Shown: one piece after another, positions 18,234-48,752 of the stretch | Layout of the letters: every line of letters starts with the position of its first letter | Position numbering within the stretch: position 1 is the stretch's first letter | Assembly: GCF_029223865.1 (NCBI RefSeq) | Contig: NZ_CP119520.1 | Location: 4,898,001-4,962,000 of the forward strand | Direction of reading: 5' to 3' | Source of the DNA: Telluria mixta | Lineage (GTDB): Bacteria; Pseudomonadota; Gammaproteobacteria; Burkholderiales; Burkholderiaceae_D | DNA: 64,000 nucleotides | Position numbers and translations under genes: made by a program | The notes under the pieces: generated by a model | The model's input: the letters and a program-made list of their open reading frames with translations, nothing else | The model's database searches: none | What the model was told of the DNA's origin: nothing

Positions 18234-18254
18234 GCATTGACTATCAAAATAAAC

Positions 18255-19865
18255 ATGCATTCCAAAATCCTCATCCTCGACTTCGGTTCCCAGGTTACCC
18301 AGCTGATCGCCCGCCGCGTGCGCGACGCCGGCGTTTTTTCCGAGGTCTATCCCTACGACATCGGCGACGAGTTCGTCCGCAACTACGGCGCCTCGGGCGT
18401 GATCCTGTCCGGCAGCCACAACTCCACGCTGGAAGGCGATTCGCCGCGCGCCCCGCAGGCCGTGTTCGAACTGGGCGTGCCCGTACTGGGCATCTGCTAC
18501 GGCATGCAGACGATGGCCGCGCAACTGGGCGGCAAGGTCGAGAACGGTAAAGTCCGCGAATTCGGCTACGCCGAGGTGCGCGCCCGCGGCCATACGAAAC
18601 TGCTGAACGGCATCAACGACTTCGTCACGGACGAAGGCCACGGCATGCTGAAGGTCTGGATGAGCCACGGCGACAAGGTCCTCGACATGCCGCAGGGCTT
18701 CAAGCTGATGGGCTCGACGCCGAGCTGCCCGATCGCCGCCATGGCCGACGAAGAGCGCGGCTTCTACGCGCTGCAATTCCACCCGGAAGTGACGCACACG
18801 ACGCAGGGCGAAGCCATCATCGGCCGCTTCGTGCACGAGATCTGCGGCTGCAAGAGCGACTGGAACATGCCGGACTACATCAGCGAGGCCGTCGACAAGA
18901 TCCGTGCGCAAGTCGGCAGCGATGAAGTGATCCTGGGCCTGTCGGGCGGCGTCGACTCGAGCGTGGCCGCAGCCCTGATCCACCGCGCCATCGGCGACCA
19001 GCTGACCTGCGTCTTCGTCGACCACGGCCTGCTCCGCAAGGACGAGGGCAAGATGGTCATGGACATGTTCTCGAAGAACCTCGGCGTGAAGGTGCTGCGC
19101 ATCGACGCCTCCGACCAGTTCATGGGCCACCTCGCCGGCGTCAATGACCCGGAGCAGAAGCGCAAGATCATCGGCCGCGAATTCGTGGAAGTGTTCCAGG
19201 AGCAGGCCAAGCAGCTGACGGCGGCCCGCTGGCTGGCGCAGGGCACGATCTACCCGGACGTGATCGAATCGGCCGGCAAGGGCAAGAAGGGCCAGACGAT
19301 CAAGAGCCACCACAACGTGGGCGGCCTGCCGGAAACGCTGAACCTGAAGCTGCTGGAGCCGCTGCGCGAACTGTTCAAGGACGAAGTGCGCAAGCTGGGC
19401 GTCGCCCTGGGCCTGCCGCACGACATGGTCTACCGCCACCCGTTCCCGGGCCCGGGCCTCGGCGTGCGCATCCTCGGCGAAGTGAAGCGCGAATACGCCG
19501 ACCTGCTGCGCGAAGCGGACGCGATCTTCATCGAAGAACTGCGCAACACGCCATTCGAAGTGCCGCACGTGCCGGGCATCGACGCCGGCAAGGCGCCGAC
19601 CAACTGGTACGAGGCGACCTCGCAGGCATTTGCCGTGTTCCTGCCGGTGAAATCGGTGGGTGTGATGGGTGACGGCCGTACCTATGAATACGTCGTGGCG
19701 CTGCGTGCGGTGCAGACGCTGGACTTCATGACGGCGCAGTGGGCGCATCTGCCGCATGAGTTGATGGGCAAGGTCTCCAATCGCATCATCAACGAAGTGC
19801 GCGGCATCAACCGCGTCGTGTATGACATTTCGGGGAAACCGCCGGCGACGATCGAGTGGGAGTGA
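18255..19865 (+). CDS. guaA: GMP synthase (glutamine-hydrolysing)
   Basis: Aminates XMP to GMP using glutamine and ATP. 536 residues: class I glutamine amidotransferase domain with nucleophile Cys81 ([18 protein letters not shown]) and the His/Glu dyad in [10 protein letters not shown]. The ATP pyrophosphatase domain has the P-loop [14 protein letters not shown] and the dimerisation domain has [15 protein letters not shown]; the C-terminus ends PATIEWE. The ATG at 18255 precedes the conserved [20 protein letters not shown]; an upstream TTG in frame is less likely. The last 15 bases recur at 38447-38461, which marks a likely island attachment site. Confidence 0.98.
19851..19865 (+). repeat. 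15-bp direct repeat, left copy (3' end of guaA; candidate attL)
   Basis: ATCGAGTGGGAGTGA encodes the last residues IEWE and the stop of guaA. The same 15 bases occur at 38447-38461. The guaA 3' end is a known site-specific integration hotspot for genomic islands, so this is a candidate attachment core. Confidence 0.6.
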
Positions 19866-19906
19866 CCGGAGTGTTGTAAGTAGGTGATTTTAAAGTAAAA
19901 CATGTT

Positions 19907-19950
19907 GGCCATTGATCATTCGACCCGAATGATCAATGGCCTTCTGTTTT
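19907..19950 (+). terminator. strong terminator after guaA (16-bp perfect stem)
   Basis: Inverted arms 19907-19922 and 19926-19941 are perfectly complementary with a 3-base loop, followed by TTCTGTTTTTA. The arms contain ATTGATCATT, unusually AT-rich for this chromosome. It could also end transcription from the converging hydrolase gene at 20058. Confidence 0.85.
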
Positions 19951-20057
19951 TATCGTCGGGTTCGCGAAACGACCGACCGTCACTGACGGCTGTGACGATG
20001 CCACAGCACGTCACCATAGGCGAGAGGTCCTTATAGGCCGGTCACGTCGACGTTACG

Positions 20058-21152
20058 TTACTTTGCGTTCCGATAGGCGTTGAATGCCGGCTTCGGCGAG
20101 CCGTCACTACGTACCATCCCGTAATAGCATTCGCTGTCGGACGAGCCGGGCGCGCAGAAATCCTTGTAGTTGTACCAGAACGTCGGGCCGGTCCACGTAT
20201 AGGAGGCGGCCAGCGACAGCGTTTGCGTCACCATGCTGGCCTGGCGGTCTTCCGACACCGTGGTTCCCCACACATTGGTGCCCGAGGTCGGTGCGCCGTA
20301 CTCGGTGATCCAGATCTTCTTTTTGTCGTCGCCGTATTGGCTCATGATCGACCGGAAACTCGTCGACGTGCTGAACATCTGTGCCCAGTTGTTGGAACTG
20401 GAATCAAGCGGAAGTTGCGGGGCAGTGTACGGATGATTTCCGACGGCGTCGAAGTAGGGGGCAGCGCCGCTGCCGTACAGCAGTTGCAGGAAGAGGCGCG
20501 CTTCCATGTTGCCGCCGCTGGTCGACGGCTGGCCGAGGCCCCCGCTTACGACGAGTGTCCTGGGATTCTGCTTCTTGATCGCGCCATAGGTCTGCTTGAG
20601 CAACTGGGCATAGCCCGCCGGATCGGCGCCTGGATTCCAGAATTGCACGAGGTTGGGCTCATTCCAGATCTCCCACGCGGCGACACCGGCGTTGCCATAA
20701 CGCGTGGTCAGGAACGCCGCAAAATTGGCGAACGTCTGCGGATTCGTTGGTGGGAAAAACTTGCTTGCCTGTCCGCCGTTGGCCCAGCCGGGCGTGTACG
20801 CGATCAGGCCAAGGATCTTGATCTGCGCTTTCGCGAGCGCTGCCACGACCCGGTCGTGATCGGCCAGGTTGTACGTCGTCGGAGTCGGCTGCATGACGCT
20901 CCAATCGAAATCGAACCGCACCCATTTGACGCCCAGGTTCTTGTACCCATCGATGGTCGACGTCAGTTCGGCCGGTGAAAGTCGGAACAACTCGTTGCCG
21001 TTGATGCCTTTTTGTGCATGTGCTGCCGGAACGCTCAGCGCAAGGACAAGGCTGAGCACGACGCTGGGAAATCTCTTGAATGCGTGCAGAAACGCTGTCG
21101 CCAGCGACGGGAAAAGCAGGCGCAGCGCGCCCATATAGAAGGTCATTTTCAT
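20058..21152 (-). CDS. secreted glycoside hydrolase, PslG-like (GH39-type TIM barrel)
   Basis: 364 residues. Signal peptide (MKMTFYMG... to PAAHAQ), then a clan A (alpha/beta)8 barrel. GINGNELFRLS and VKWVRFDFDWSV open the barrel, WEIWNEPN carries the acid/base Glu near residue 155, and IWITEYGAPTSG carries the nucleophile Glu near residue 288. PslG-type enzymes trim or release exopolysaccharide in the periplasm. It is a paralogue of the gene at 30574 in the same cluster, and points outward from the cluster on the opposite strand. Start at 21152 chosen because AAGG lies 6 bases upstream. Polymer specificity is unknown. Confidence 0.85.
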   Translation of the reverse strand: MKMTFYMGALRLLFPSLATAFLHAFKRFPSVVLSLVLALSVPAAHAQKGINGNELFRLSPAELTSTIDGYKNLGVKWVRFDFDWSVMQPTPTTYNLADHDRVVAALAKAQIKILGLIAYTPGWANGGQASKFFPPTNPQTFANFAAFLTTRYGNAGVAAWEIWNEPNLVQFWNPGADPAGYAQLLKQTYGAIKKQNPRTLVVSGGLGQPSTSGGNMEARLFLQLLYGSGAAPYFDAVGNHPYTAPQLPLDSSSNNWAQMFSTSTSFRSIMSQYGDDKKKIWITEYGAPTSGTNVWGTTVSEDRQASMVTQTLSLAASYTWTGPTFWYNYKDFCAPGSSDSECYYGMVRSDGSPKPAFNAYRNAK

Positions 21153-21294
21153 AAATTGCCTTATCAAATCCGCTGCTCACGCTGCGGGACAAGGCCTGCT
21201 CCACAAAATCCGGAGCAGGCAACTGGCTGACTTGTCGGTACAAGCCCCTGTAGTTTTGCGTCGCCGGATTGCTCCGGGTTTGCCTTTCATTCAC

Positions 21295-21646
21295 ATCGCT
21301 ATGCTACACCAATAGTTTCTATGCGGCAAATTAATTGACGTATTTGTGTAAATGTAAATACACATAAGAAATGTTTCTGTCAATGTTTCTTGGTTTTTCG
21401 CGTTTTCTTCCCAAAAATTTGACAAATATGTTGTTTTTTGTGAGGTGTAAATATTTCGCTTGTAAGAACATTCCTACTTCAGCATTATTGCTGCAGAGCG
21501 GAATAGTTTTCTTTCAGAACTTCTTCTTTGTTTTTTGTTATGGGCTTTGCAACCTCTGACTGAGGTGCGTGCAAGTAGTCTGCGGACCTCGTGATACTCG
21601 CAGATCGTTATGCTTTTTGGATCAATATTTTCGTAGAAGGATAATC
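21295..21646. promoter_or_regulatory. AT-rich divergent promoter region of the exopolysaccharide cluster
   Basis: About 350 bases without a gene, strikingly AT-rich beside GC-rich neighbours. It contains the inverted repeat TGTGTA-N8-TACACA at 21345-21364 and two copies of AATGTTTCT (near 21369 and 21381). It separates the minus-strand hydrolase from the plus-strand polysaccharide operon, so it probably carries both promoters and operator sites. No specific regulator can be named. Confidence 0.5.
21345..21364. promoter_or_regulatory. inverted repeat, candidate operator of the exopolysaccharide cluster
   Basis: TGTGTA and TACACA are perfect 6-bp arms separated by AATGTAAA, in the middle of the AT-rich divergent region. 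Dyads of this spacing are typical of dimeric regulators. Confidence 0.45.
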
Positions 21647-23046
21647 GTGCGCATAAATATCGAAAATTTGGCCGACGTGGAGCATGAGATCGCTCATGTG
21701 TTTCCTTCAGCAACCAATATCGTCAGGCGCATCCTGGATCCGCTCTTCGCGGCCGTCGCGTATCTTGCACTCGCGTTCTGGGTTGACGACACCATCACAA
21801 AGCAGGACGAGGTGTTCGCATTCGTTGCTGCGCTGATTTTTTTTCCGAGCACGCCAGTCGGTACGTCGCTGCGCAAATACGCGTCTGCAGTACTGTTCAG
21901 CTGGATAAAGGTGCTGGCCTGCCTGTTTATCTTTGACCTCGTGGGACATTTTTCCGCCGGCTTCAACATGGAAGTCGTCAAGCTTTGGGCAATGCTGGTG
22001 CCGGTTTCGATCATTGCCATGCATACGTTGGGCGCGCCCTTGAAAAGGCGCCTGAACCTTTTTGCAGCGACTCAGACGGCCGTCGTGATCGGTGCGAGCG
22101 AGGTCGGCAAGCATCTGGCGCACCGCCTGCAGTCGAAGAGCATTCCGGGCCAGTCCTTCGTCGGCTACTTCGACGATCGGCCCGCCACGCGCAGCGGTGC
22201 CGGCGACGGCGAACTGCTCGGGGTCATCGACACCGCGCCGGAATTCGTCAAGCGCGAGCGCATCGACATGGTGTATGTCGCGTTGCCGATGGCATCGCAG
22301 CCCCGCATCATGAAATTGCTGGATGGCTTGCGCGATACGACGGCGACGGTCAAGTTCGTTCCCGATATGTTCATCGCAGACCTCATCCAGGCAAAGGTCG
22401 AGAATGCGGCGGGCCTGCCGGTGATCGCGATCTGTGACACGCCGTTCGTCGGCTCCTACGGCCTGCAAAAACGTTGTTTCGACCTGTTGGTCTGCCTGCT
22501 CGCGCTGCCGGTCATCGCGCCGCTCATGCTGCTGATCGCCGTATTGATCCGGGCAACGTCCGCGGGGCCTGCCTTCTTCAAGCAACGCCGCTATGGTCTC
22601 AACGGGGAAGAGATCGTCGTGTGGAAGTTCCGGTCCATGAAGGTGATGGAGGATGGCGACGCAGTCTACAAGCAGGCTACGCAGGATGACGACCGTATCA
22701 CCGCCGTTGGAAAGATTCTCCGCAAGACGTCGCTGGACGAACTGCCGCAGTTGATCAATGTACTCATGGGTTCGATGAGCCTTGTGGGGCCGCGTCCCAT
22801 GCCGTCGCCGTCAACGAAAACTACCGCAAGCAAATTTCGGGGTACATGGTGCGCCATAAGGTCAAGCCCGGTATCACGGGCCTGGCGCAGGTGAACGGTT
22901 ACCGCGGCGGCGACGATCTGCATTCGATGAGCAAGCGTATCGAATATGACTTGATTTACCTGCGCTCATGGCATCTTTGGCTCGACGTCACCATCGTGTT
23001 CAGAACGGCGCTCATGCTGCTCAAGGGCGACCCCAAGGCGTTCTGA
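21647..23046 (+). pseudogene. undecaprenyl-phosphate sugar-phosphate transferase (exopolysaccharide initiation), frameshifted
   Basis: Initiates the repeat unit by moving a hexose-1-phosphate onto undecaprenyl phosphate. Four N-terminal membrane helices (FAAVAYLALAFWV onward) and a CoA-binding-like Rossmann segment (VVIGASEVGKHLAHRL) precede the bacterial sugar-transferase catalytic domain. That domain has [53 protein letters not shown] and SLVGPRP. The frame breaks at CCC 22796-22798; one extra base gives [13 protein letters not shown] and joins the second frame ([21 protein letters not shown] to the end). Start GTG 21647 follows AGAAGG at 6 bases. If the deletion is real the conserved end is lost and polymer synthesis would depend on another transferase. 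Confidence 0.8.
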
Positions 23047-23101
23047 GCTCACCCGGACATAACTCTTCTGGTGTTGGCATCGGGCGCTGCACAGCAAATA
23101 C

Positions 23102-24238
23102 ATGACAAAAGAAATTGTTCAAATAATCGGCAACGGCGATCCGGGCGGAGGCACCACGGCGGTGCTGACCCTCGCCATCCTGCTGCACGATGCCGGCCAT
23201 CGGCCTGTCATCGTGTCGCAGCGTGGCAGCTACCTGCTTCGTGAAGCGGGCAGGCATGGCATCGACGCGCACGGGATGGACTTTTCCTCGCGTGGCGGCG
23301 CGATCGCCAATTGCCGCGCGCTGGCGGCATTCATCCGCCAGCGCGGACCGGCGGTCGTGCACGCGCACGGCAACCGTGCGGGCCTCCCGGTCGCACTCGC
23401 CATGAAGTTGCTGGGCAGGGCGCATCGGCCCCGTTTTGTCTACACCGTGCACGGTTTCCATTTTCTGACCAAGAAGATCGGTGCCTATCAGCTTGCCCGG
23501 ATCGCTGAGAAGTTTGCGATCGGCGCGGCCGACTGGACCAATTTCGTGTCGGATGGCGACGCGCATATCGCACGCTCGCAGCGACTGGTGGCGGATCTCG
23601 CCAGCACGGGCGTCATCCACAACGCCGTGCTTTCACAGGATTTTCCTGCCGGCGCCCCCGGTTCAACCGGACCGGGGATCGCGTTCATCGGCAGGCTGAC
23701 GCACCAGAAGAACCCCTTGATTCTCGTCGATATTGCTGCGGCACTCCGGCCACTGGCGCCGCCGATTCACGTGATCGGGGGCGGCGAGCTGGAACCCGTG
23801 CTGCGCGACAGGGTGCGCACGGAGGGCATGTCGGGCCAGTTCGTCTTCCACGGCCAGCAGCATCGCGCGGACGCGCTGCGGATCGCGGCGACCTGCACGC
23901 TGCTGCTGCTGCCGTCGCGCTGGGAAGGCCATCCCATCACGGTGATCGAGGCGATGCATATGGGACTGCCGGTGGTTGCATCGGACATTTCCGGGACACG
24001 GGAAATCGTCGATCAGGACGGTACCGGCTACCTGGTGCGTGCGGACGACGCGGCAGGATATGCGGCGGCGATCCGGCAGGTACTGGTCGAGCCAGGGCTG
24101 GCGAGACGGCTCGGTGAGCGCGGGCGTGACGTCGCCAACGAAAGGTTCTCGGCGCAGCGCATGCTGGGCGCGAATCTCGCGGCGTACCGGATCACGTCGC
24201 AGGGAACCGGGACGCACGCCGCATCGTGTGTCGTCTGA
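23102..24238 (+). CDS. glycosyltransferase family 4
   Basis: 378 residues, GT-B fold. The N-terminal acceptor domain has GNGDPGGGTTAVLTLA and VVHAHGNRAGLPVALAM. The C-terminal donor domain has the retaining GT4 pattern (IAFIGRLTHQKNPLILVDIA, LLPSRWEGHPITVIEAMHMGLPVVASDISGTREIV), in which the E-x7-E-type glutamates contact the nucleotide-sugar. Cytoplasmic, membrane-associated extension of the lipid-linked repeat unit. 55 bases downstream of the initiating transferase and 23 bases upstream of the flippase gene. The sugar is not predictable. Confidence 0.9.
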   Translation: MTKEIVQIIGNGDPGGGTTAVLTLAILLHDAGHRPVIVSQRGSYLLREAGRHGIDAHGMDFSSRGGAIANCRALAAFIRQRGPAVVHAHGNRAGLPVALAMKLLGRAHRPRFVYTVHGFHFLTKKIGAYQLARIAEKFAIGAADWTNFVSDGDAHIARSQRLVADLASTGVIHNAVLSQDFPAGAPGSTGPGIAFIGRLTHQKNPLILVDIAAALRPLAPPIHVIGGGELEPVLRDRVRTEGMSGQFVFHGQQHRADALRIAATCTLLLLPSRWEGHPITVIEAMHMGLPVVASDISGTREIVDQDGTGYLVRADDAAGYAAAIRQVLVEPGLARRLGERGRDVANERFSAQRMLGANLAAYRITSQGTGTHAASCVV

Positions 24239-24261
24239 ACGGCTAACAGGACTGCGACTTC

Positions 24262-25578
24262 ATGCGAATCGTTATCTTGCTCATCGGTACCGCCGGCAAC
24301 GCGCTGATCGCGTTTCTGACGCATCTGCTGTTGACGCGAAACCTGGCAGTGGACGATTACGGCCGCGTGGTCGCCATCACGGCGGCGGTGACGATGGTGA
24401 CGCCTGTCGCGAGCATGTGCATCGGTTGGTTCTGGCTAGAACTGTATGGCAGGGAAGGCGAAGCCGCGGTGCGGTGGGGACCCGGCTCCAGGATGGCCAG
24501 CCTGGGTGCGTTCTCGATCTCGTCCGCCGTGCTGGTGGGATATGGCATGCTCGCGGGCATTGCCAGCCCGGTCGTGCTCGCGTGCGCGTGCATGATGCTC
24601 GCCGGTCAGTCTCTGGCCGAGACCCGCGCGGTGCGGCTGCAACTCGAGGAGCGCTACAACGCCCTGGGCGTCTGGCAAGCCGCGCCGCAGGCATTGCGTT
24701 CGGCCGCCGTGCTGGCCATGCTTGTCGTGTCGTCAGGCTTGTCGGACCAAACCGCCATGATGGCCTATGGCTTTGCCGCGCTGGTGGTCGCAGCGCTGTC
24801 GAGCGGCTCGATCCAGGCGGTCACCGACGGTGGTGTCCGGATCCCGGGTGCGGGCCGGGCCCGGAGACGCGACGACGCAACTGGCGAACCGGCCGTGTCG
24901 GCGTGCTTCAAGGCAGCGTGGCCCTTCTCGCTGGTGACGCTGTTTTATCTCGTCTATTCCACGGGCATCCTTGCGCTGCTCAACCCCCTCATCGGGGCGG
25001 CTGCGAGTGCCTACTACAACATCGGATTCCTGTTGTTCAATTCCCTGGCCATGCTGCCCAGCGTGATCTACGGGAAATTCCTGGTAGGCAAACTCTTCCG
25101 CTGGTGGTCGCACGACCGGGAAAAGTTCGTGGCGGTCTTCCACCTCGGCGTGGCGGCCCATTTCGGGCTGGGTATCGTGCTGGGGGCGCTGATGTGGTGG
25201 ACGGCGCCGGTCGTCGTGCCGCTGCTGTTCGGTGAACACTACCGCGACGCGGTGCCAGTCGTCCGCATCCTGGCGCTTGCGGTGCCGATCCGTTTCGTCC
25301 AGCACGGCTACGGCGCGGTACTGTTCTCCAAAGAGCATATCCGGCGCAAGGTGCGCTACATGGGCCAGGCGGCGCTGTTGAGCGTGGTGTTGCTGGTCGT
25401 GCTGGCAGGACGCTATGGCGTGACCGGCGCCGCGGTCACATCGGTCGCTTCGGAACTGGCGCTGCTCGTCTTCTACATGGCGGGTGCCGCGCGTCACGTC
25501 GCGCCGATCGACGTGCGTGCGACCTTCCTGCCTCGCACGCTGACGACGGCATACCGCCGGCTGGTAGGGGAGGGTTGA
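24262..25578 (+). CDS. polysaccharide flippase-like membrane protein (Wzx/MATE-type)
   Basis: 438 residues with about 12 hydrophobic helices. It begins MRIVILLIGTAGNALIAFLTHLLLTRNLAVDDYGRVV, typical of the polysaccharide-transport family, and has VPLLFGEHYRDAVPVVRILALAVPIRF in the C-terminal half. Expected to flip the lipid-linked repeat unit across the inner membrane. Lies between the first GT4 and the polymerase-like gene, with tight spacing. Moderately sure of Wzx function because the family is diverse. Confidence 0.82.
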   Translation: MRIVILLIGTAGNALIAFLTHLLLTRNLAVDDYGRVVAITAAVTMVTPVASMCIGWFWLELYGREGEAAVRWGPGSRMASLGAFSISSAVLVGYGMLAGIASPVVLACACMMLAGQSLAETRAVRLQLEERYNALGVWQAAPQALRSAAVLAMLVVSSGLSDQTAMMAYGFAALVVAALSSGSIQAVTDGGVRIPGAGRARRRDDATGEPAVSACFKAAWPFSLVTLFYLVYSTGILALLNPLIGAAASAYYNIGFLLFNSLAMLPSVIYGKFLVGKLFRWWSHDREKFVAVFHLGVAAHFGLGIVLGALMWWTAPVVVPLLFGEHYRDAVPVVRILALAVPIRFVQHGYGAVLFSKEHIRRKVRYMGQAALLSVVLLVVLAGRYGVTGAAVTSVASELALLVFYMAGAARHVAPIDVRATFLPRTLTTAYRRLVGEG

Positions 25579-25580
25579 GG

Positions 25581-26894
25581 ATGACCATATCGGATCCGGC
25601 AACCCGCGTCGTGCACATGCCGTTGCGTACCTCTGCTGCGGCATTGGCGCCCTCCGGTCCCACGCGGATCGAGACACTGCTGATTGTCATCCTGCTGTGC
25701 GCGTTTTGCGCGCTGCCCTTCCTGGTCGGCGACCAGCCCGTTTTCCTGACGTCGGTGAAGGAGACCGGCATTACGTCGCCACAAGGGGATACCAACAAGC
25801 AGATCATCCTGCTGGCCATCTACGGGCTCGTTGCGGGTACGCTTGCACCGAGGTTGACGCCCGATGCGCGGCGCGCCATCGGACTGCCGCTGGTGCTGCT
25901 GCTGGCATGGGCGGGCCTTTCCGCACTCTGGGCGGACATGGCCGGCATCACGCTGCGCCGTACCGTGGCGCTTGGCGGTACGTTCACGCTGGGCGTTTAC
26001 CTTGCGTTGCGTTGGCCGCCGCGCGAGCTCGCACGCCTGTTCTGCCAGGTGGCGCTGGTCGTGCTCGGCGCGTCGTTCGTCATTGCACTGGTGTTGCCGA
26101 GTGCGGGTCTGGATCCCGAGCATCGCCTGCGCGGCGTGTTCGCGCACAAGAATTCCTTCGCTTCATTCGCCGCGCTTGCCCTCGTGTGCGCAGCCGACGC
26201 CCTGGCCGATCCGCAACGGCGGCGCCAACGTCTGCCGTGGATCGTCGCCTTGTCCAGCCTGGTGGCATTGGGCCTGGCGGCGTCCGCGTCGCCGATCCCC
26301 GCCGCCGCCGCCGCCGTTTTCGTCGTCGTTCGTGTCCATGCGATGGCCCCGGGCACGCGCCACGTGTTGTCCACGCGCCTGTGCGGCTGGGTCTTCGCCG
26401 CGACCGTCCTGATGCCGTGGATTGCGCCGTTCGTCGGCGAGATCGCGCTGCTGTTCGGCCGCAATACGGATTTTTCCGGCCGGACGCTGGTCTGGAAGTT
26501 TGCGCTCGAGTTCTTCCAGCGCAATCCGTTGTTCGGCTATGGCTATGCCTCGTTCTGGTCGGGGCCCGCCGGCCTGCTGTTCGTCAGTTACGCCCGTTTT
26601 CCGGTCGCGCATGCGCACAACGGGGCCATGCAGTTCCTTCTCGATTGCGGCGCCATCGGACTGGCCCTGTTCGCCACGATCCTGGCGCGCGCATTGCGCG
26701 GGGTTTCCGCGCTCCTGAACGACAAGGATCGCGGTGCGGCTGCCTGGATGGCGGGCTACCTTGTCCTCTACACGTTTTCCAACCTTGCGGAAACCCATCT
26801 TCTCGAGCCCAACGACCTGTATACGGTCCTGTTCGCCTATGTCGTCGTCAGGATCAACCTGGCACGCGCCGGCGCCACGCAGGATGCGCCGTGA
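25581..26894 (+). CDS. O-antigen ligase/polymerase-family membrane protein (Wzy-like)
   Basis: 437 residues with about 10-12 transmembrane helices. The Wzy/WaaL signature lies in the second half: FRGVFAHKNSF-like sequence (LRGVFAHKNSFASFAALAL), GRTLVWKFALEFFQRNPLFGYGYASFW and a periplasmic AHNGAMQFLLDCG with the conserved His. In an exopolysaccharide cluster the likely role is polymerising repeat units in the periplasm. The ATG at 25581 follows the flippase stop directly; a TTG six bases earlier is possible. Confidence 0.85.
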   Translation: MTISDPATRVVHMPLRTSAAALAPSGPTRIETLLIVILLCAFCALPFLVGDQPVFLTSVKETGITSPQGDTNKQIILLAIYGLVAGTLAPRLTPDARRAIGLPLVLLLAWAGLSALWADMAGITLRRTVALGGTFTLGVYLALRWPPRELARLFCQVALVVLGASFVIALVLPSAGLDPEHRLRGVFAHKNSFASFAALALVCAADALADPQRRRQRLPWIVALSSLVALGLAASASPIPAAAAAVFVVVRVHAMAPGTRHVLSTRLCGWVFAATVLMPWIAPFVGEIALLFGRNTDFSGRTLVWKFALEFFQRNPLFGYGYASFWSGPAGLLFVSYARFPVAHAHNGAMQFLLDCGAIGLALFATILARALRGVSALLNDKDRGAAAWMAGYLVLYTFSNLAETHLLEPNDLYTVLFAYVVVRINLARAGATQDAP

Positions 26895-26926
26895 AGACCC
26901 TTGCCATCCCTTATGTGATTGAATCC

Positions 26927-30554: not shown

Positions 30555-30573
30555 TGTCCGGTCGCTCGACAGC

Positions 30574-31635
30574 ATGAATCGTCCACGCCGACATCCAATG
30601 ACCCCCCCCGCGCGCTTGCGCGCCTGCGTGCTCGCGTTCGCCCTGGCCGCCGGTATGGCGGCGCCCGCGTTCGCGCAAAAAGGCATCAACGGCAACGAAC
30701 TCCATACGCTCTCCGCGCAGGAGCTTGGCGCAACGATCGCGGACTACCGGCAGCTGGGCGTGAAATGGGTGCGCTTCGATTTCGACTGGAGCGTCATCGA
30801 GCCGACGGCCGGACGATTCGCGTTCGAACGTTACGACCAGGTGATCGACAAGCTGGCGCAAGCCGAAATCCAGGTCCTCGGCCTGATCGCCTACACGCCG
30901 TCCTGGGCCAACGGCGGCAGGCCTGGAAAATACCATCCACCCCAGAATCCCGCGCGGTTTGCCCAGTTCGCGGCGCGGCTCGCGGGACGTTACGCCAACA
31001 AGGGCGTGCATGCATGGGAAATCTGGAACGAGCCGAACCTTGGGCAGTTCTGGGGCAACGCCCCCGATGCCGCGGCCTACACGGCCCTGCTGAAACTCAC
31101 CTACACGGCCATCAAGAAAGCGGATCCGAAGGCATTTGTCGTCTCCGCGGGATTGGCGCAACCCGCGACGACGGCGACGTCGGTCGATTCCCTGACCTTC
31201 CTGACAGCCATGTACCGGAACGGAGCGCAGGGCTATTTCGACGCGCTGGGGAATCATCCGTACACGTCGCCGAGGATCCCGGGAGAATGGATGGCCTACA
31301 ACTGGCGCAAGATGAGTGCCACTTCGCCAAGTGTGTTGTCCATCATGAAGCAGTACGGCGACGCCAACAAGAAAATCTGGATTACCGAATTTGGCGCGCC
31401 TACGGGCGGCAAGAGTCCATGGGGAACGGTGATAAGCGAAGCGCAGCAAGCCACGATGGTCGAGAGAACGCTGGCCGAAGCAGCGGCGGTACCGTGGGCC
31501 GGCCCCGTGTTCTGGTACAACTACCGCGATTTCTGCCCCTACAAGCCGGATGCCGATTCCGAATGCTTCTATGGCCTGACGCGCGTCGACGGATCCCGGA
31601 AACCCGCGTTCGAAAAATTCCGCACCAGCCCCTAG
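30574..31635 (+). CDS. secreted glycoside hydrolase, PslG-like, second copy
   Basis: 353 residues. Signal peptide to PAFAQ, then KGINGNELHTLSAQELGATI, VKWVRFDFDWSVIEPT, acid/base WEIWNEPNLGQFW and nucleophile IWITEFGAPTGG, ending VFWYNYRDFCPYKPDADSECFYGL. It is strongly similar along its length to the product at 20058. It sits within the operon between epsG and a GT2 gene, so it is co-expressed with polymer synthesis. A start at 30598 is also possible. Probably trims polymer in the periplasm. Confidence 0.87.
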   Translation: MNRPRRHPMTPPARLRACVLAFALAAGMAAPAFAQKGINGNELHTLSAQELGATIADYRQLGVKWVRFDFDWSVIEPTAGRFAFERYDQVIDKLAQAEIQVLGLIAYTPSWANGGRPGKYHPPQNPARFAQFAARLAGRYANKGVHAWEIWNEPNLGQFWGNAPDAAAYTALLKLTYTAIKKADPKAFVVSAGLAQPATTATSVDSLTFLTAMYRNGAQGYFDALGNHPYTSPRIPGEWMAYNWRKMSATSPSVLSIMKQYGDANKKIWITEFGAPTGGKSPWGTVISEAQQATMVERTLAEAAAVPWAGPVFWYNYRDFCPYKPDADSECFYGLTRVDGSRKPAFEKFRTSP

Positions 31636-31671
31636 CCCAACGATTCCATTGGCCTCCTTGGACAACACACC

Positions 31672-32595
31672 ATGAACTCCTCAGTCACCGTAGTCATCCC
31701 GACTTTCAATCGAAAAGAGCTCATCTTCCAGGCACTCGACAGCGTCGCTAAACAAACCTGTCTGCCGCTCGAAGTCATCGTCGTCGACGACTGCTCGTCC
31801 GACGGCACGGTCGAAGCGTTGCGCGCCGCGCACTTTCCGTTCCCCGTCCTGGTCGTAGCCCAAGCGACGAACCAGGGGCCGGCGGCCGCGCGCAACGCCG
31901 GGATCCTGAAAGCCAGTGGCCGCTATGTCGCTTTTCTCGACAGCGACGACGTCTGGTTGCCGGAAAAACTCGAGCAGCAGCTTGCCTTGCTCGAATCCTT
32001 GCCGAACCGCGACAGGACGGTGCTGTATGCCCAGGTACGATTGCAGCGGCGTCACGAAGTCCTGCTCCGTCCGCTGCGCGCAAAGGAGGGCGGCGAATCC
32101 ATCGCGGAATATGTGTTCGTGAATGGCGGGTATCTCGACCAGAACACCATCATGCTTCCCACGGCACTCGCACGCGCCGTCATGTATTGCGGCGACCTTC
32201 GCCTGCACGAGGACTGGGATTTCTACATCCGGCTGGAAGAGCAGGGCGCGGTATTCGTCATGGTCGAGATGGCGCTCGGCATCACCTACGACAACAGCAC
32301 GTTCGGCAGGGCAAGCGCAGCACAGCCGACCCACTCGCTGGCCATGCTGGAAAACTGGCGGCCGCGCATCTCCGAGCGCGCCTATCTTGGCTTGCGGGCC
32401 CGGATCGCGCCCCAATTGCGCGGCCAGGCGCCGCTGCGTGCCTGCGGATTCATCATCGACGCCTACAGGAGGGGAGCGATCTCGTTCTGGATGGTCGTGG
32501 TGCTGATCGGCCGTCTCGCGCATCCGGATCTAAGGCAGCTTGCCTATTACATCCGGGGCAAGCTTGCCCGCACCGCGCCGGCCGAGGCGCACTGA
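31672..32595 (+). CDS. glycosyltransferase family 2
   Basis: 307 residues, GT-A fold: VTVVIPTFNRKELIFQALDSVAKQ at the N-terminus, VVDDCSSDGT, GPAAARNAGILKASGRYVAFLDSDD with the DxD-like metal site near residue 87, and HEDWDFYIRLEEQG as the acceptor-side block with the catalytic Asp. Cytoplasmic, inverting transfer in repeat-unit assembly. Followed by manC four bases after its stop. Confidence 0.9.
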   Translation: MNSSVTVVIPTFNRKELIFQALDSVAKQTCLPLEVIVVDDCSSDGTVEALRAAHFPFPVLVVAQATNQGPAAARNAGILKASGRYVAFLDSDDVWLPEKLEQQLALLESLPNRDRTVLYAQVRLQRRHEVLLRPLRAKEGGESIAEYVFVNGGYLDQNTIMLPTALARAVMYCGDLRLHEDWDFYIRLEEQGAVFVMVEMALGITYDNSTFGRASAAQPTHSLAMLENWRPRISERAYLGLRARIAPQLRGQAPLRACGFIIDAYRRGAISFWMVVVLIGRLAHPDLRQLAYYIRGKLARTAPAEAH

Positions 32596-32599
32596 CCGA

Positions 32600-34042
32600 A
32601 TGGACAACCATACGATCATCGATATGAACATTTATCCAGTTATCCTCTCCGGCGGTGCCGGTACCCGTCTGTGGCCGCTGTCGCGGGCAGTGATGCCCAA
32701 GCAGCTGCTGCCGCTGGTGACGGACAAGACGATGCTGCAGGAAACCGCGCTGCGGGTCCGCGGCTGGCCGGGGTTGATGGCGCCGCTGGTGGTCTGCGGC
32801 AATGAGCACCGCTTCCTCGTGGCCGAGCAGCTGCGCGGCGTCGGCATCACGCCGCACGGCATCCTGCTCGAGCCGGCGGGCCGCAACACGGCCCCGGCCG
32901 TGGCGGCAGCGGCCGCCTTCCTGAAGGCGCAGGATCCGGACGCCGTGATGCTCGTGCTGCCCGCCGACCACGTGATCGAAAAGAACGAAGCGTTCCGCGT
33001 CGCCGTGGAACGTGCGGCGGCGCAGGTGGAAAAGGGCGCGCTGGCCACGTTCGGCATCGTGCCGAGCGCCCCGGAAACGGGCTATGGCTACATCCGCCGC
33101 GGCGAACCGCTGCCGGGCTGCGACGACTGCTACAAGATCGAGCGCTTCGTCGAAAAGCCGGACCGCAACACGGCCGAAGGCTTCGTGGCCGACGGCGGCT
33201 TTTACTGGAACAGCGGCATGTTCATGTTCCGTGCCGATCGCTTCCTGGCCGAGATCGAGAAGCACGCGCCGACGATCGCCCAGGCTGCCGGCGCCGCCGT
33301 GCAGTCGGCGTACCGCGACCTGGACTTCTGCCGCCTGGACGAAGCCGCGTTCGCCGCGAGCCCGTCCGATTCGATCGACTATGCGGTGATGGAACACACG
33401 CGCGACGGCGTCGTCGTCGCGGCCGACATCGGCTGGAGCGACGTCGGTTCCTGGTCGGCGCTGGCCGACGTGCAGGACAAGGATGCCAGCGGTAATGCCG
33501 TGCGCGGCGACGTCTACCTCGACAGCACGAGCAACACGCTCGTGCGCGCCGAGAGCCGCATCGTGGCCGTCGTGGGCGTGAAAGACCTCGTCGTCGTCGA
33601 GACGAACGATGCCGTGCTCGTCGCGCACAAGGACATGGTCCAGCGCGTGAAGAACGTCGTCGACCACCTCAAGGGCAACGAGCGCACGGAACACCTGTAC
33701 CACACGAAGGTGTACCGTCCGTGGGGCTATTACGAAGGCATCGACGCGGGCGACCGCTTCCAGGTCAAGCGCATCTGCGTGAAGCCCGGCGAAAAGCTGT
33801 CGCTGCAGATGCACCACCACCGCGCCGAGCACTGGATCGTCGTGTCGGGCACGGCACGCGTCACGTGCGGCGACAACGTCACCCTGCTGTCCGAGAACGA
33901 GTCCACGTACATCCCGATCGGCATGACGCACCGCCTGGAAAACCCGGGCAAGCTGCCGCTGCACCTGATCGAAGTGCAGTCGGGCAGCTACCTCGGCGAG
34001 GACGACATCGTCCGCTTCGAGGATATCTACAAGCGCTCGTGA
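32600..34042 (+). CDS. manC: mannose-1-phosphate guanylyltransferase / mannose-6-phosphate isomerase
   Basis: Makes GDP-mannose, so the polymer probably contains mannose or a mannose-derived sugar. 480 residues from ATG 32600; ATG 32624 (MNIYPVILSGG) is the alternative and more family-typical start. The nucleotidyltransferase domain has SGGAGTRLWPLSRAVMPKQ, VEKPDRNTAEGF and FYWNSGMFMF. The C-terminal cupin isomerase domain has VKPGEKLSLQMHHHRAEHWIVVSGTARV with metal-binding His residues. Typical bifunctional length and order. Confidence 0.95.
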   Translation: MDNHTIIDMNIYPVILSGGAGTRLWPLSRAVMPKQLLPLVTDKTMLQETALRVRGWPGLMAPLVVCGNEHRFLVAEQLRGVGITPHGILLEPAGRNTAPAVAAAAAFLKAQDPDAVMLVLPADHVIEKNEAFRVAVERAAAQVEKGALATFGIVPSAPETGYGYIRRGEPLPGCDDCYKIERFVEKPDRNTAEGFVADGGFYWNSGMFMFRADRFLAEIEKHAPTIAQAAGAAVQSAYRDLDFCRLDEAAFAASPSDSIDYAVMEHTRDGVVVAADIGWSDVGSWSALADVQDKDASGNAVRGDVYLDSTSNTLVRAESRIVAVVGVKDLVVVETNDAVLVAHKDMVQRVKNVVDHLKGNERTEHLYHTKVYRPWGYYEGIDAGDRFQVKRICVKPGEKLSLQMHHHRAEHWIVVSGTARVTCGDNVTLLSENESTYIPIGMTHRLENPGKLPLHLIEVQSGSYLGEDDIVRFEDIYKRS

Positions 34043-34074
34043 GCGCACCAGGGTTATCGAAAAGGTTGGATCGG

Positions 34075-34335
34075 ATGTTCAGGTTAGTCAAAGGATGGGC
34101 GAGAAGACTTGCTCCACTCTTCTCCCGTAAAGCCTACCGCGCTCGCCCGCCGCTGAAGAGCAGGTTCATCAGGCAGTTCGAGTATCGCTATCTAAGGAAC
34201 GGGAAATATCGTGGCGTCATTGTGTGGAGCCTGATCGGCCGATTGTCCAACGACCACGTGGAGCGGTTTTGTGAACATGAACGTGAGACCAAAGAGCAGG
34301 CACTGAACGATGCGAGAACGGCGATATGGAATTGA
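34075..34335 (+). CDS. small basic protein between manC and epsL, function unknown
   Basis: 86 residues, MFRLVKGWARRLAPLFSRKAYR..., Arg/Lys-rich in the first half with no membrane helix. No family was recognised. AAAGG lies 9 bases upstream of the ATG. The 3' end overlaps the start of epsL by 26 bases, and it fills a gap that would otherwise be open in this tight operon. Real, but with an unknown job. Confidence 0.5.
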   Translation: MFRLVKGWARRLAPLFSRKAYRARPPLKSRFIRQFEYRYLRNGKYRGVIVWSLIGRLSNDHVERFCEHERETKEQALNDARTAIWN

Positions 34336-35536
34336 CCTGATCATCGAGCGGCCGACGCGTCGTCTTGTCACGCTGCTCCTGGCACTGTACGCTTTGCCCG
34401 CTGGTGCCGGCCCAGGCGATGCGCTCCACCTGTATGCCGGTGTCGGCTACGCCCACGACGACAACCTGCTGCGCGTGCCCGAGGGCCAGCCCGCTTTCGG
34501 CGGCGCCCGTGCCGACTCGTGGTGGACGCGCGAGGGTGGACTGCTCTTCGATAAGACCTACAGCCGCCAGCGGATTTCCATCGTGGCCAAGCTGTCGAAG
34601 TACGACTTCGACTACTTCAAACAGCTGAATTACGATGGCAAGGATTTGCAGGCAACCTGGTTCTGGCAACTCGGCAATCACCTCGAAGGCAAGGTCGGTA
34701 CGACCCATGAACAGGTGTTGGCACCATACACCGATATCGCGAGCAGCGAGCGCAATTTGCGTCGTACTCGCGGCCGGTTCGCGGAAGGCGCGTGGCGCTT
34801 CCACTCGTCCTGGCGCGTGCGCACGGGCTTCCAGCGCGACAAGTATGACTACGAGCTGTTCGCCCAGCGCTACAACAACCGCACCGAGGACGCGAGCGAG
34901 GTCGAGCTCGATTACCTGCCCAGCAGCGGCAGCACGGTGGGCCTCGTGGCGCGGCGGGTCAAGGGCAAATATCCCTATCCGCGCCCCGTCGGTCCGAACC
35001 TTCTCAACGACAACTTCACGCAGGACGAACTGAAGGCGCGCGTGCTGTGGATCGCGACGGGCTCCACGACGTTCGACGCCCTGGTCGGCTACACACGGCG
35101 CGACCAGCGGTCGTTCGGCACGGGCAAGACGAGCGGCGTGGCCGGCAAGGTCAAGGCCACGTACCAGCCGCGCGGCAAGATGACGTACCGCGCCGCCGTC
35201 TGGCGCGACTTCGCGCCGCTGGAGAGCACGGTAGTGAGCTACACGCTGAACAAGGGCGCCAGCGTGGGTGCGCAGTGGGATGCGACGGCCAGGATCAAGG
35301 TGAATGCCGACGCCGTCTACGAGCGGCGCAACTACAACGCGCGCGAGACGTTCGCCGGCGCGGGCGACATCCGCGATTCCATCCGCACGCAGAGCCTGTC
35401 CGCGACGTGGACGCCGCGGCCGACCATCCAGGTATCGGCCGGGCTGGCGCATCAGGCGCGCAGCAGGGTACCCGCGCTCGGTACCGGCGGCTTCACGGCG
35501 AATGGTATGACGGTGTCGGCAAGCGGACAGTTCTGA
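34310..35536 (+). CDS. epsL: exopolysaccharide biosynthesis outer-membrane beta-barrel protein EpsL
   Basis: 408 residues. A signal peptide (RRLVTLLLALYALPAGAG) is followed by an alternating beta-strand pattern ending in a C-terminal Phe (VSASGQF), which fits an outer-membrane barrel. AGVGYAHDDNLLRVPEG near the mature start is characteristic of EpsL, the predicted outer-membrane secretin-like porin partner of EpsE in methanolan-type clusters. Start overlaps the preceding small gene. Confidence 0.83.
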   Translation: MRERRYGIDLIIERPTRRLVTLLLALYALPAGAGPGDALHLYAGVGYAHDDNLLRVPEGQPAFGGARADSWWTREGGLLFDKTYSRQRISIVAKLSKYDFDYFKQLNYDGKDLQATWFWQLGNHLEGKVGTTHEQVLAPYTDIASSERNLRRTRGRFAEGAWRFHSSWRVRTGFQRDKYDYELFAQRYNNRTEDASEVELDYLPSSGSTVGLVARRVKGKYPYPRPVGPNLLNDNFTQDELKARVLWIATGSTTFDALVGYTRRDQRSFGTGKTSGVAGKVKATYQPRGKMTYRAAVWRDFAPLESTVVSYTLNKGASVGAQWDATARIKVNADAVYERRNYNARETFAGAGDIRDSIRTQSLSATWTPRPTIQVSAGLAHQARSRVPALGTGGFTANGMTVSASGQF

Positions 35537-35584
35537 AGGCGGTCGCAGGCATCCAACAAGATCAACAAACCAGAAGGAGCAGAT

Positions 35585-36385
35585 ATGAAACGATTCGTGA
35601 CCCGGGTGTGCGCATGGACGATCACGGCAGTCCTGGCATTGGGTGTCGACATGGCGCACGCTGCCGACGTAGTGCTCGGCGCGGGCGATATGGTCAAGGT
35701 GTCGGTCTATGGCAGCCCCGACCTCGCGACCGAAGCACGCGTGTCGGAGGCCGGCTCGATGACCTTCCCGCTGCTGGGTGACGTGCAGGTCGGCGGCCTG
35801 ACGGCCCAGGAGGCGGAAAAGAAGCTCGGCGGCCTGCTCGAGAAGGGCGGCTTCCTCAGGAAGGCCCAGGTCAACCTCCTGATCACCACGCTGGCGAGCC
35901 AGCAGGTGTCGGTGCTGGGCCAGGTGAACCGTCCGGGCCGCTATCCGGTCGACGGTCCGCGCAAGGTGCTCGACCTGCTGGCGCTGGCCGGCGGCATGGG
36001 CCCGGAAGGCGGCGACATGGTCAGCCTGGTGCGCACCCGCAACGGTGCCACCACGCGCGAAACCATCGACGTCGTCGACATGGTGCGCAAGGGCGAGCTG
36101 AACCGCGATTACGAAGTCGCCGGCGGCGACATCATCTTCGTCGAACGCGCACCGCGCGCCTACATCACGGGCGAGGTGCAGCGTCCGGGACCGTTCCGCC
36201 TGGAACGCGCGATGACCATCCGGCAGGCCCTGTCGGCTGGCGGCGGTCTGACCCAGCGCGGCACCCAGCATGGTCTGCGCATCACGCGCCGCGACGCGAA
36301 CGGCGGGGCGCAGACAATCGATGCGAAACCCGATGACCTCGTGCAAGTTGACGACGTCATCACGGTCAAAGAGTCCTGGTTCTAG
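35585..36385 (+). CDS. epsE: polysaccharide export protein EpsE (Wza-like, SLBB domains)
   Basis: 266 residues. Signal peptide to AHAAD; Poly_export domain (LGAGDMVKVSVYGSPDLATEARVSEAG, FPLLGDVQVGGLTAQEAE) and two SLBB repeats (VSVLGQVNRPGRYPVDGPRKVLD; YITGEVQRPGPFRLERAMTI). No lipobox Cys is seen, unlike E. coli Wza, so it is probably a periplasmic or non-lipidated outer-membrane export ring. AGGAGC lies 6 bases upstream. Partner of EpsL for export of the polymer. Confidence 0.92.
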   Translation: MKRFVTRVCAWTITAVLALGVDMAHAADVVLGAGDMVKVSVYGSPDLATEARVSEAGSMTFPLLGDVQVGGLTAQEAEKKLGGLLEKGGFLRKAQVNLLITTLASQQVSVLGQVNRPGRYPVDGPRKVLDLLALAGGMGPEGGDMVSLVRTRNGATTRETIDVVDMVRKGELNRDYEVAGGDIIFVERAPRAYITGEVQRPGPFRLERAMTIRQALSAGGGLTQRGTQHGLRITRRDANGGAQTIDAKPDDLVQVDDVITVKESWF

Positions 36386-36456
36386 ACCCATCGGCGGAAA
36401 CGCGCGTCAACGCTCCGTTTATAGGGTCGACATTCCAACAATTACATAAAGAACCT

Positions 36457-37652
36457 ATGTTCAACTGCAAAAGCCGGATACTGTTTGTTACCGAGGACCT
36501 GTTCATTCCGCCTCGTAACGGGTCTGCCCGTATTTATTACGACACGGCAGAAAAATACAAATGCGGTGGCCATGACATTTTCTGTATCGCGGCGTATCGG
36601 AGCGAGGAGGAAGCGAATGCGCCCGGTATAAAAGATGGGTATTCGACCCTGTTCAGCGATGTCCTTTTTATCCCCAGCCTGAATTACCGGGGCAACGCCG
36701 TGGCGAAACTGGGACTGGTGATGCGCGAAGTCGCGCGCACCCTGAGCGGTGACGTGTACACGGGGACGCCGTTCTACACCATAGCCCTGCGCCCGTTCGT
36801 CCATTCAATCGTCGACTTCGTACGGAAAAACGAAATTGAGGTTATCTATTTCCACAAGCCGCATACCGTGCTGATGCTCCTGCCGCTATTACATCAATTC
36901 TCTTCTTTGGAAGTCGTTGTAGAGATGCATGATGATTTCATCGAGCGTGCCGAGCAGTATCGATTGACTTATCGTAGCCTGTTTTCCAGGATGGACTGGA
37001 AGCATATCTTTGCCCGGTACCTGGGTGAGTACGTCAAGCTGGTGCGGCTCAGCAGCTTGAACGTCCTGAGGTCACGCCACACTGAAACTCGATTGCTCCA
37101 GTATTGCGGAAAAATCCTGGTGGCGTCCGAAGAGGAATTTGGCTATTACCGGCAAGATCCGGCAATGAAAGAGAAAGTCGTCTACCACCCATGGCAGTTC
37201 GATCAAGCCCCGCCCATGTCGGGCACACGATCCGCGCCCGGTTTGATGCCGGATTCATCAGTGGTGACGACATCATGAATCTTGATGGACTCGTGCACTT
37301 CTGCACATGTGTCTTGCCCGGCATTCGGGTTCAGAAGCCGAACTTCCGATTCCTGGTTGCCGGGGCCATTTCAACCAAGGCGCTCGGCCTCGTCGGCCAC
37401 TTGCCCAATGTGACGGTCTCGGGCCCGGTCGATGACCTCCGTGAATTCTATGAAGCCGTGTCGGTCGTTGTGATTCCGGTCCGCTACGGTACCGGCGTAA
37501 GCATCAAGGCGTTAGAGGCGATACGCTCGGGGTGCCGGGTAGTCAGCACGAGTAAAGGAGTGCGAGGTATTGCGAAGGCCAATCTTGGCGGAATCGCTAT
37601 TGCGGACGAGGCAGACCAGTTCGGCGAGAGGGTGCTGAGCGCGCTTCACTGA
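36457..37652 (+). pseudogene. GT4-type glycosyltransferase, interrupted by an apparent one-base deletion
   Basis: The first frame gives an acceptor domain (ILFVTEDLFIPPRNGSARIYYDTAEKY, VIYFHKPHTVLMLLPLL, VVVEMHDDFIERAEQYRL). It ends abruptly after VYHPWQFDQAPP, at CCC 37213-37215. One added base continues with HVGHTIRARFDAGFISGDDIM and the donor domain (FRFLVAGAIS, VTVSGPVDDLREFYEAVSVVVIPVRYGTGVSIKALEAIRSGCRVVSTSKGV). The whole is about 398 residues, normal for GT4. GC content is visibly lower than in the cluster's other transferases, suggesting a different origin. Last gene of the exopolysaccharide cluster. Confidence 0.75.
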
Positions 37653-38034
37653 CGCGGCTTCGATTGTCCTGAGACGCCGCCATCTGCAATTGTCCGGATA
37701 TCGCTATTTACGATAGGCCGGAACTCAGGCAAACTGTTATAAAAAATAGATCAATAGGCATAGGTGAAGCGTGACGCCGCTGCCATGCACAGGATGGCAG
37801 GGGACACGTGCAACAACGAGCTGATCAGTACACAGAGCGCGCCATTGAACGTCTCATTATCAGCGTGCTGATGCAGCCGGCAAACCGACGCCGCGTGCCG
37901 GGCGAACCGAACATCAACTGATCATCGCGACATGTGTGTTCCATCAAGGCCATCAAGATGCACCATGAATTGCGGCGCTTTTCACGGTCAATTCGCCCCA
38001 TCCATTGCGAAAACAAGGTGTTAGTGTTCTCAAC

Positions 38035-38259
38035 ATGAATCGTCGCAACGATCGGCAGACAGCCCTCATCATTGACGCAGCCCTCAGTACCTGTTCAGCG
38101 CGCGGCGTACAGGTTGCGGCATTGATGTTGTCCGAACACGAAATCGCGCTCGCTACGATTTTGCGTGTCTTGACTTCGCCGAGGAAACGCCGCGGTGCGG
38201 GGCAACATTCATGTATTACCGCGCAGCCTGATATGTGTAGGGGAAACGGCGAGCACTGA
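38035..38259 (+). CDS. possible small protein, function unknown
   Basis: 74 residues beginning MNRRNDRQTALIIDAAL, with a helical middle (GVQVAALMLSEHEIALATIL) and a basic stretch RVLTSPRKRR. It resembles small uncharacterised proteins I recall from this bacterial family, but no named domain. No good ribosome-binding site is visible close to the ATG. Lies in the low-GC flank. Confidence 0.35.
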   Translation: MNRRNDRQTALIIDAALSTCSARGVQVAALMLSEHEIALATILRVLTSPRKRRGAGQHSCITAQPDMCRGNGEH

Positions 38260-38446
38260 TGCAAGCGGGAGAAAAAGGCTGGTACGCTTCACTCCGCGGT
38301 GGTCTTTCATCTAGCCGGGATCAAGCCAAGCGGTCATTGACTTTGCTTGCCGCTGAGCTGACTTCTGCACATGGTAAAGTTAATGGTATTGTCGAAGTTT
38401 CAATCTAAAAGTGGTGAGAATCAGGTGCTTGACTCAGCCATTGATC

Positions 38447-38461
38447 ATCGAGTGGGAGTGA
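38447..38461 (+). repeat. 15-bp direct repeat, right copy of the guaA 3' end (candidate attR)
   Basis: ATCGAGTGGGAGTGA is identical to the last 15 bases of guaA, 18.6 kb away. The preceding bases (CCATTGATC) keep the frame, reading PLIIEWE-stop versus PATIEWE-stop in guaA. A terminator follows 37 bp downstream, as would be expected for the displaced original end of guaA. Confidence 0.6.
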
Positions 38462-38497
38462 GCTTCCTGTTGGAAACTTGATCTCCAAGTCTATAAA

Positions 38498-38526
38498 AGC
38501 CCGCCTCGTCTCGGCGGGCTGTTTTA
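38498..38526. terminator. Rho-independent terminator, bidirectional
   Basis: AGCCCGCC (38498-38505) pairs with GGCGGGCT (38513-38520) around a 7-base loop, with a T-rich tail on both strands. It can end the minus-strand hydrolase gene and, before any island insertion, could have ended guaA. Confidence 0.85.
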
Positions 38527-38560
38527 TTGAATAACGTAGGCAAACACTGCCTCGTTGGGC

Positions 38561-40092: not shown

Positions 40093-40529
40093 TGTTGGGC
40101 TCCTTGTGCCTTTGCCTGCGCGCCCGCCGGCGGCCTGGGCGGATAGAACTGGTCGTAGTCCTGCGTGAAGTGGTTGTCCTCGATCAGCTGGAAATTCTTC
40201 TCGCGGTGGCGGTGCAGCAGCACGGACAGCGTCCACGGGCGGCTGTACACGTCGGGGTCTTCCAGCGTGGCCTTGTACTCGATCGTGTTCGGATCGAGGT
40301 AGCGCCAGCGTTCGACGACGTGCAGTTTCTCACCGTGGAAGTTGCCGGCCCGGTCCAGCCAGGTCTCGTCATTGAAGTCGGTCACGTCCACAACCAGGGT
40401 GTCACCTTCCCAGCGGCGGCGCGAACGACCGATTTCGCATATCCATGGAATGGCGATAGCCAGTCTGTGGAGTATTTGCGGTTCAGGTGTTATCGCGAAG
40501 GTGCCGGAGCCGCGCCTGAGGTCAATCAT
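40089..40529 (-). pseudogene. truncated C-terminal fragment of a TonB-receptor-associated hypothetical protein
   Basis: The translated end (RRRWEGDTLVVDVTDFND, WLDRAGNFHGEKLHVVERW, DPNTIEYKATLEDPDVYSRPW) matches a family of about 300-400-residue proteins often found beside TonB-dependent receptors. Only about the last 120 residues are recognisable; the first about 25 look unrelated. Its stop overlaps the receptor remnant's start (ATGA), so the two were once an operon. Left behind by deletion. Confidence 0.6.
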
Positions 40530-48723: not shown

Positions 48724-48752
48724 ACCAACGACACGAACAAGGGGATGCGGAA

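Follow-up and report, generated by a model that had tools for sequence, protein, structure and literature searches.

The exopolysaccharide (eps) cluster that follows guaA in Telluria mixta is, on strong evidence, an island flanked by direct repeats at the 3′ end of that gene. We studied it in a stretch of 64,000 nucleotides, hereafter the window (contig NZ_CP119520.1, positions 4,898,001 to 4,962,000), and coordinates below are those of the window. Our preferred account goes further. We propose, with a probability of about 90%, that the eps cluster (20058..37652, recognized by family searches) is the cargo of a guaA 3′-end island inserted by a P4-type integrase, and that this island now lacks an integrase, resembles a cis-mobilizable element (CIME), and forms the guaA-proximal unit of a 78.5-kb accretion. 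What the sequence itself offers is a repeat, a conserved right end that includes a single arm-like repeat, interchangeable tails after guaA, empty sites, and a locus where no integrase was found. The initial annotation, made from the letters of the window alone, had suggested an old island here, and that suggestion is borne out: right ends of the same kind occur in 18 of 61 Massilia and Telluria genomes (the window's genome included), the one in the window scores 57.0 bits against 0.4 for the next best place, the eps Wzy gene is strongly matched in 1 of the 61 genomes, and empty sites exist in five other genera.

A direct repeat of the guaA 3′ end

The target gene guaA (18237..19865, plus strand) encodes GMP synthase, with Pfam domains GMP_synt_C and GATase, and is essential. 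Its last 15 bases, ATCGAGTGGGAGTGA, constitute the left core (19851-19865, plus strand). They recur exactly, as the initial annotation had noticed, at the other edge of the eps cluster, where the right core (38447-38461) is a second copy of the guaA 3′ end on the same strand that again reads IEWE-stop. This assignment of the right core rests on the genome-wide count and on the right-end profile described below. In the whole genome of 7,444,617 bp, ATCGAGTGGGAGTGA occurs twice on the forward strand and never on the reverse strand, and the same sequence read backwards occurs on neither; the concern that many other copies might exist in the chromosome can be set aside, since only the two edge copies were found. 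Both copies contain GAGTGGGA, the core reported for guaA islands in the available excerpts of PMC9376610 and PMC7775301, so direct repeats with the guaA-island core stand at both ends of the cluster.

The right flank is low in GC and gene-poor, as had also been noted. GC content is 51-57% at 36500-38499, compared with 59-70% in most of 22000-36500 and 58-69% to the right of 38500, and a further low-GC stretch lies at 21000-21999. Two open reading frames (ORFs) of at least 80 amino acids lie wholly inside 37652-38446, and neither has a Pfam match.

A conserved right end shared with relatives

The right core is preceded by a conserved right end (38370..38446, plus strand) that terminates in CTCAGCCATTGATC and has an arm-like repeat at 38383-38391. 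Over 38370-38469 the window is 85% identical to a right end in G041 (L141; G numbers denote genomes). Additional guaA ends with CTCAGCCATTGATC, or a sequence close to it, in front of them first came to notice in five genomes, one of them that of the window. A genus-wide search for this motif with at most three mismatches then gave 31 places in the 18 genomes mentioned above, compared with one match in all 61 for the motif read backwards. Of these places, 24 lie on contigs that bear guaA, and all of the 24 except one of the two in G060 are downstream of the gene and on its strand, at distances of 3.7 to 313 kb. They often stand several in a row, with five in G041. The other seven are on contigs without guaA (G031, G036, G044, G051). 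In G015 there is a second guaA end that lacks the right-end motif.

Conservation was read from 30 of the 31 places. It extends some 75 bp upstream from the core, at a mean of 0.78 bits per column, compared with 1.63 in the core and 0.29 in the 15 bp after it. We built a 35-bp profile from 29 right ends, leaving out the copy in the window. In 104 kb from the window start its best score is at 38427, and the next best place is the guaA end itself; five shuffled sequences scored at most 0.0. The exact degenerate motif was found in 12 stretches of a named collection, all labelled Massilia or Telluria. The 15-bp repeat has led to a defined island whose right end can serve in searches.

Exchangeable tails after guaA

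A query for the guaA 3′ end matched in 59 of the 61 genomes, two of the matches being partial (G025, G055), and we compared the downstream stretches of 56 relatives, each up to 20 kb and shorter at contig ends. Three tails recur directly 3′ of the stop codon. Tail A is a GCCGTTGATCAT hairpin, tail B is AAGCCCCTGA..TCAGGGGCTT, and tail C is GTTTCC..GGAAAC followed by a GC-rich hairpin. Typing by regular expression, which is imprecise where some C tails and the tails after distal copies are concerned, assigned the 57 guaA tails, including that of the window, to A (20), B (18), or C (15), leaving 4 unclassed. The genes beyond the tails vary, no ORF cluster being common to more than 7 of 57 genomes. 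A strict terminator rule (hairpin plus T-run) is satisfied by 39/57 guaA tails and 18/30 distal tails versus 13/400 random windows; the rule misses the remaining 18/57 and 12/30.

The window has tail A on its left side (19866..19950, plus strand), with the present guaA terminator hairpin at 19907-19941. The stem of this terminator, GCCRTTGATCAT, has 11-12 bp in common with the right-end sequence GCCATTGATCAT (38433-38448), both in the window and in the relatives' consensus, and in the window one arm of the stem has a G to A change that the other arm matches. On the right flank stands tail C (38462..38587, plus strand), which we read as the former guaA tail. It is 72-76% identical over 133-142 bp to the sequence directly 3′ of guaA in G022, G036, and G049, and is probably itself the left end of an older element. 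The initial annotation was correct that a terminator lies at 38498 (38498-38520), and the tail to which it belongs does follow guaA directly in those three relatives. It is not the ancestral guaA terminator, as had been supposed. A separate observation concerns G038 (L082), where a second, partial guaA lies about 0.9 kb downstream of the gene; it comprises about 360 bp of the 3′ part, is 74% identical, and ends in IEWE-stop followed by another terminator-like sequence.

Empty sites and the extent of the accretion

The expected empty site was found outside the genus set. In G128, G133, G155, G189, and G195, genomes from five other genera, the neighbour of guaA is a gene with OsmC and YcaO domains, and the 93-251 bp between the guaA stop and the start of this gene hold nothing more than a terminator, AAGCCCTG..CAGGGCTT, and some short sequence. 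These come from a family set of 145 genomes, in which the OsmC/YcaO query matched in 114 and guaA in 135. Only adjacent pairs were read, namely the five above plus G104 and G106, where 2.7 and 3.5 kb separate the genes; some other pairs are more than 100 kb apart.

Within the genus set the same interval is far from empty. In the 32 genomes where both genes are colinear on a single contig, the gap ranges from 488 bp to 225,897 bp (median 45,223), and in the window's genome it is 78,547 bp. In G007, G012, and G022 the genes share a contig without being colinear, and in the rest they are split between contigs or one was not found. In G036, the ancestral terminator and the OsmC/YcaO gene come immediately after a right end with its core, and the same holds, in diverged form, for G017. 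The ancestral guaA terminator is AAGCCCTG..CAGGGCTT, which in the window's genome lies 60 kb beyond 38498, outside the window. Since guaA and the OsmC/YcaO gene are 78.5 kb apart here, the DNA from 19866 to about 98.3 kb is accreted, and the eps block (18.6 kb) is its guaA-proximal unit.

An RBBP9-like hydrolase gene had been put forward as the backbone to the right of the island. We rejected it because it is not adjacent to guaA in relatives: a 96% homologue in G031 is on a contig other than that of guaA, and homologues of 72-74% in G039, G002, and G015 are 288-855 kb away. Within the accreted DNA, DUF1302 and MMPL genes mark a stretch at 47432-52972. G031:C25 holds its counterpart, 67-72% identical and immediately to the right of an island right end (L135), and the stretch may therefore be an older unit common to both genomes.

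Integrases and arm-like repeats

In relatives, a P4-type integrase gene occurs about 0.3 kb after guaA where the gene has tail B. It is intact in G031, G041, and G046, and the G046 protein has domains PF13356, PF22022, and PF00589. Pieces of it lie at the same place in G020, G023, G027, G032, G040, and G056. Across the 61 genomes, matches of at least 50% identity to this integrase adjoin guaA, bar one 42-residue piece of a broken copy (otherwise 47%) inside an array in G036:C10. Copies at 40% occur elsewhere in G011 and G047, and the best relative in the window's genome is 31% identical and sits at an unrelated locus at 2.72 Mb. We also searched eight genomes for PF00589. In six of them (G000, G005, G022, G047, G058, G060) the interval from guaA to the right ends is free of matches, whereas G041 has one match at guaA and G027 a fragment close to the gene.

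The initial annotation had predicted a decayed integrase, or a tyrosine-recombinase relic, in the flanks of the eps cluster, and this prediction failed. No PF00589 match was found within 220 kb of guaA in the window's genome, and tblastn with the three intact guaA-type integrases, run over the 104 kb that begin at the window start, revealed no relic (best E 0.15).

A second proposal was that GCCATTGATCAT, placed at 19908 and 38437, represents arm-type sequence. Both positions are right, and a third copy was overlooked: the window holds 19908(+), 19929(-), and 38437(+), a number reached in 0 of 100 shuffles. The two copies on the left correspond to the two halves of the stem in the guaA terminator hairpin, and the copy at 38437 overlaps the right core and is the core-proximal end of the element. 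We rejected an arm-type role for GCCATTGATCAT because the repeat at fixed arm-like positions is a different one, ATGGTAYYG. Searched as ATGG[TC][AG][TC][TC]G, it precedes the core by 60-82 bp in 21 of 30 right ends versus 0.44% of random windows, commonly at 66 and 78 and thus 12 bp apart, and is absent from the expected place in the other 9. The right end in the window has one such repeat, ATGGTATTG, at 38383-38391. From their fixed positions, these repeats may be the arm sites of the integrase.

A possible course of events

We infer integrase-mediated recombination at guaA from known guaA islands, which have the GAGTGGGA core (excerpts of PMC9376610 and PMC7775301). A P4-type tyrosine integrase would have inserted the eps element into the last codons of guaA. 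By recombining the attachment site of the element with guaA, through strand exchange within the 15-bp core, it would have left the gene intact, with its last codons kept and IEWE-stop preserved, and supplied it with the element's own tail and terminator (tail A). The older guaA end and tail C would have been displaced to the right edge, at 38447. The integrase of the eps unit may have been lost later or absent from the start, giving the CIME-like unit of today. With no integrase and no recognizable left arm sites, the unit would now be fixed in place or movable only by an outside integrase. One mark of a guaA island, insertion at the 3′ end with regeneration of the gene end, is present here; another, a P4-type integrase carried by the island, was not found in the eps unit.

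A broader and quite tentative idea, toward which we remain sceptical, is that guaA of Massilia and Telluria is a capture locus in which a transient P4-type integrase gathers integrase-less cassettes in tandem, playing a role like that of an integron. If so, each cassette would consist of a conserved arm-and-core right end plus its own guaA terminator, and because cassettes bring this terminator with them, arrays of up to hundreds of kb, with defence or exopolysaccharide genes, could grow while guaA stays unharmed. The IntI integrase that marks an integron was not found: the guaA integrases of relatives are P4-type, and there is none at the window locus. The locus offers a test case for how an essential gene withstands one insertion after another at its 3′ end, with tails that are much richer in terminator-like hairpins than random windows.

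Alternative explanations

Several results count against our preferred account. The identity of the integrase is taken from relatives because neither an integrase nor a relic was found in the accreted region. No arm-like repeat was found within 450 bp of the left core of the window, and among guaA tails in general just 11 of 57 have the ATGGTAYYG-type repeat at +120 to +155 (random windows, 0.86%). The right-end motif was found, at up to three mismatches, in none of 43 of the 61 genomes. The terminal guaA end before the OsmC/YcaO gene here is only a weak remnant, with 10 of 15 bases alike by eye, and the right-end profile did not pick it up. Most eps genes have a GC content like that of their surroundings, and the same eps island was found in no relative.

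The most serious rival is a composite origin, in which the right end at 38447 comes from one element and tail A from a later one, the two having been fused by deletion, and the eps genes came with either element or by ordinary recombination inside an island. Arm-like repeats are absent on the left and present on the right, left tails and right ends are variously paired among relatives, and the low-GC stretches at 21000-21999 and 36500-38499 could be seams. However, no second core or right end was found between 19866 and 38446, and the eps genes form a compact set, with most of them pointing the same way. We consider this origin possible but rather doubtful, and it overlaps with our preferred account because it too posits an island at guaA.

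Alternatively, the arrays may have grown without an integrase, by RecA-dependent homologous exchange between shared cores and ends. Array units do have the core and some 75 bp of right end in common, and PF00589 was not matched anywhere from guaA to the right ends in six of the eight genomes searched. Yet the shared ends are short and diverged, three relatives have intact P4-type integrases at guaA, and the ATGGTAYYG-type repeats keep the fixed positions that integrase sites would have. Such growth therefore seems improbable. The idea that the eps cluster is native beside guaA and the repeat fortuitous can be dismissed, for although a 15-mer alone is modest evidence, the pair is unique in 7.44 Mb, the conserved right end gives a profile score far above shuffles, and other genera have empty sites.

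Gene content of the eps unit and of the locus

The eps genes encode a sugar-1-phosphate transferase, glycosyltransferases, a Wzy_C protein, and a ManC-type GMP_PMI protein. EpsL and EpsE score above curated NCBIfam cut-offs, EpsF/EpsG-like chain-length proteins score below them, and the flippase assignment is weak. A glycoside hydrolase-like gene lies at 20058-21167 on the minus strand. None of the 16 ORFs scanned in the eps region (20058-38264) matched a transfer family. Wzy was the only eps gene sought genus-wide; the strong match is that of the window's genome itself, and G057 has one match at 25%. Plasmid homologues of Wzy amounted to 109 records; none reached 60% identity or covered 80% of the query, and they are uninformative.

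To the right of the eps unit, 39368-41709 on the minus strand looks by eye like the last part of a TonB-dependent receptor, split over short frames, and two neighbouring ORFs at 54391-58567 each have a flavin amine oxidoreductase domain. In relatives, stretches after guaA contain candidate anti-phage defence genes (5 of 8 scanned proteins matched): PtuA/PtuB-like in G022 (L039), PDC-S06 in G007 (L064), PDC-S49 in G049 (L043), and PDC-M60A in G038 (L082). The interval between guaA and the OsmC/YcaO gene is a very variable locus in the soil bacteria Massilia and Telluria, with eps genes here and candidate defence genes in relatives.

Relation to known systems

Islands associated with guaA were reportedly treated by Song et al. 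in 2012. Among open-licence papers we found none on the guaA locus of Massilia, which is weak evidence of absence, and none of the Massilia papers that mention both genomic islands and integrases concerns guaA, judging by their titles. Islands at guaA, P4 integrases there, an integrase-less unit moved by such an integrase, and tandem accretion have all been published (PMC9376610, PMC7775301, and PMC5704250, here and below as far as their excerpts extend).

GIsul2 and the CR2-sul2 unit target the guaA 3′ end and have the GAGTGGGA core, as the eps unit does. CR2-sul2 is an integrase-less unit bounded by att sites that a guaA-type integrase can excise and integrate. GIsul2, unlike the eps unit, carries its own integrase, and its cargo also differs (PMC9376610). 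This comparison extends to target and core, the right end in the window having been set against Massilia and Telluria sequences only and not against the att sites of GIsul2. ICERspD18B and guaA-associated islands are likewise inserted at the guaA 3′ end between GAGTGGGA direct repeats and feature P4-type integrases. ICERspD18B is conjugative and has its own integrase, whereas no conjugation or integrase gene was recognized in the eps unit (PMC7775301). The eps unit also resembles a CIME, as defined in PMC5704250: both have core copies at the two ends and no recognized integration genes, and both stack in tandem with other units at one target gene. In contrast to a CIME, the left arm sites of the eps unit are not recognizable.

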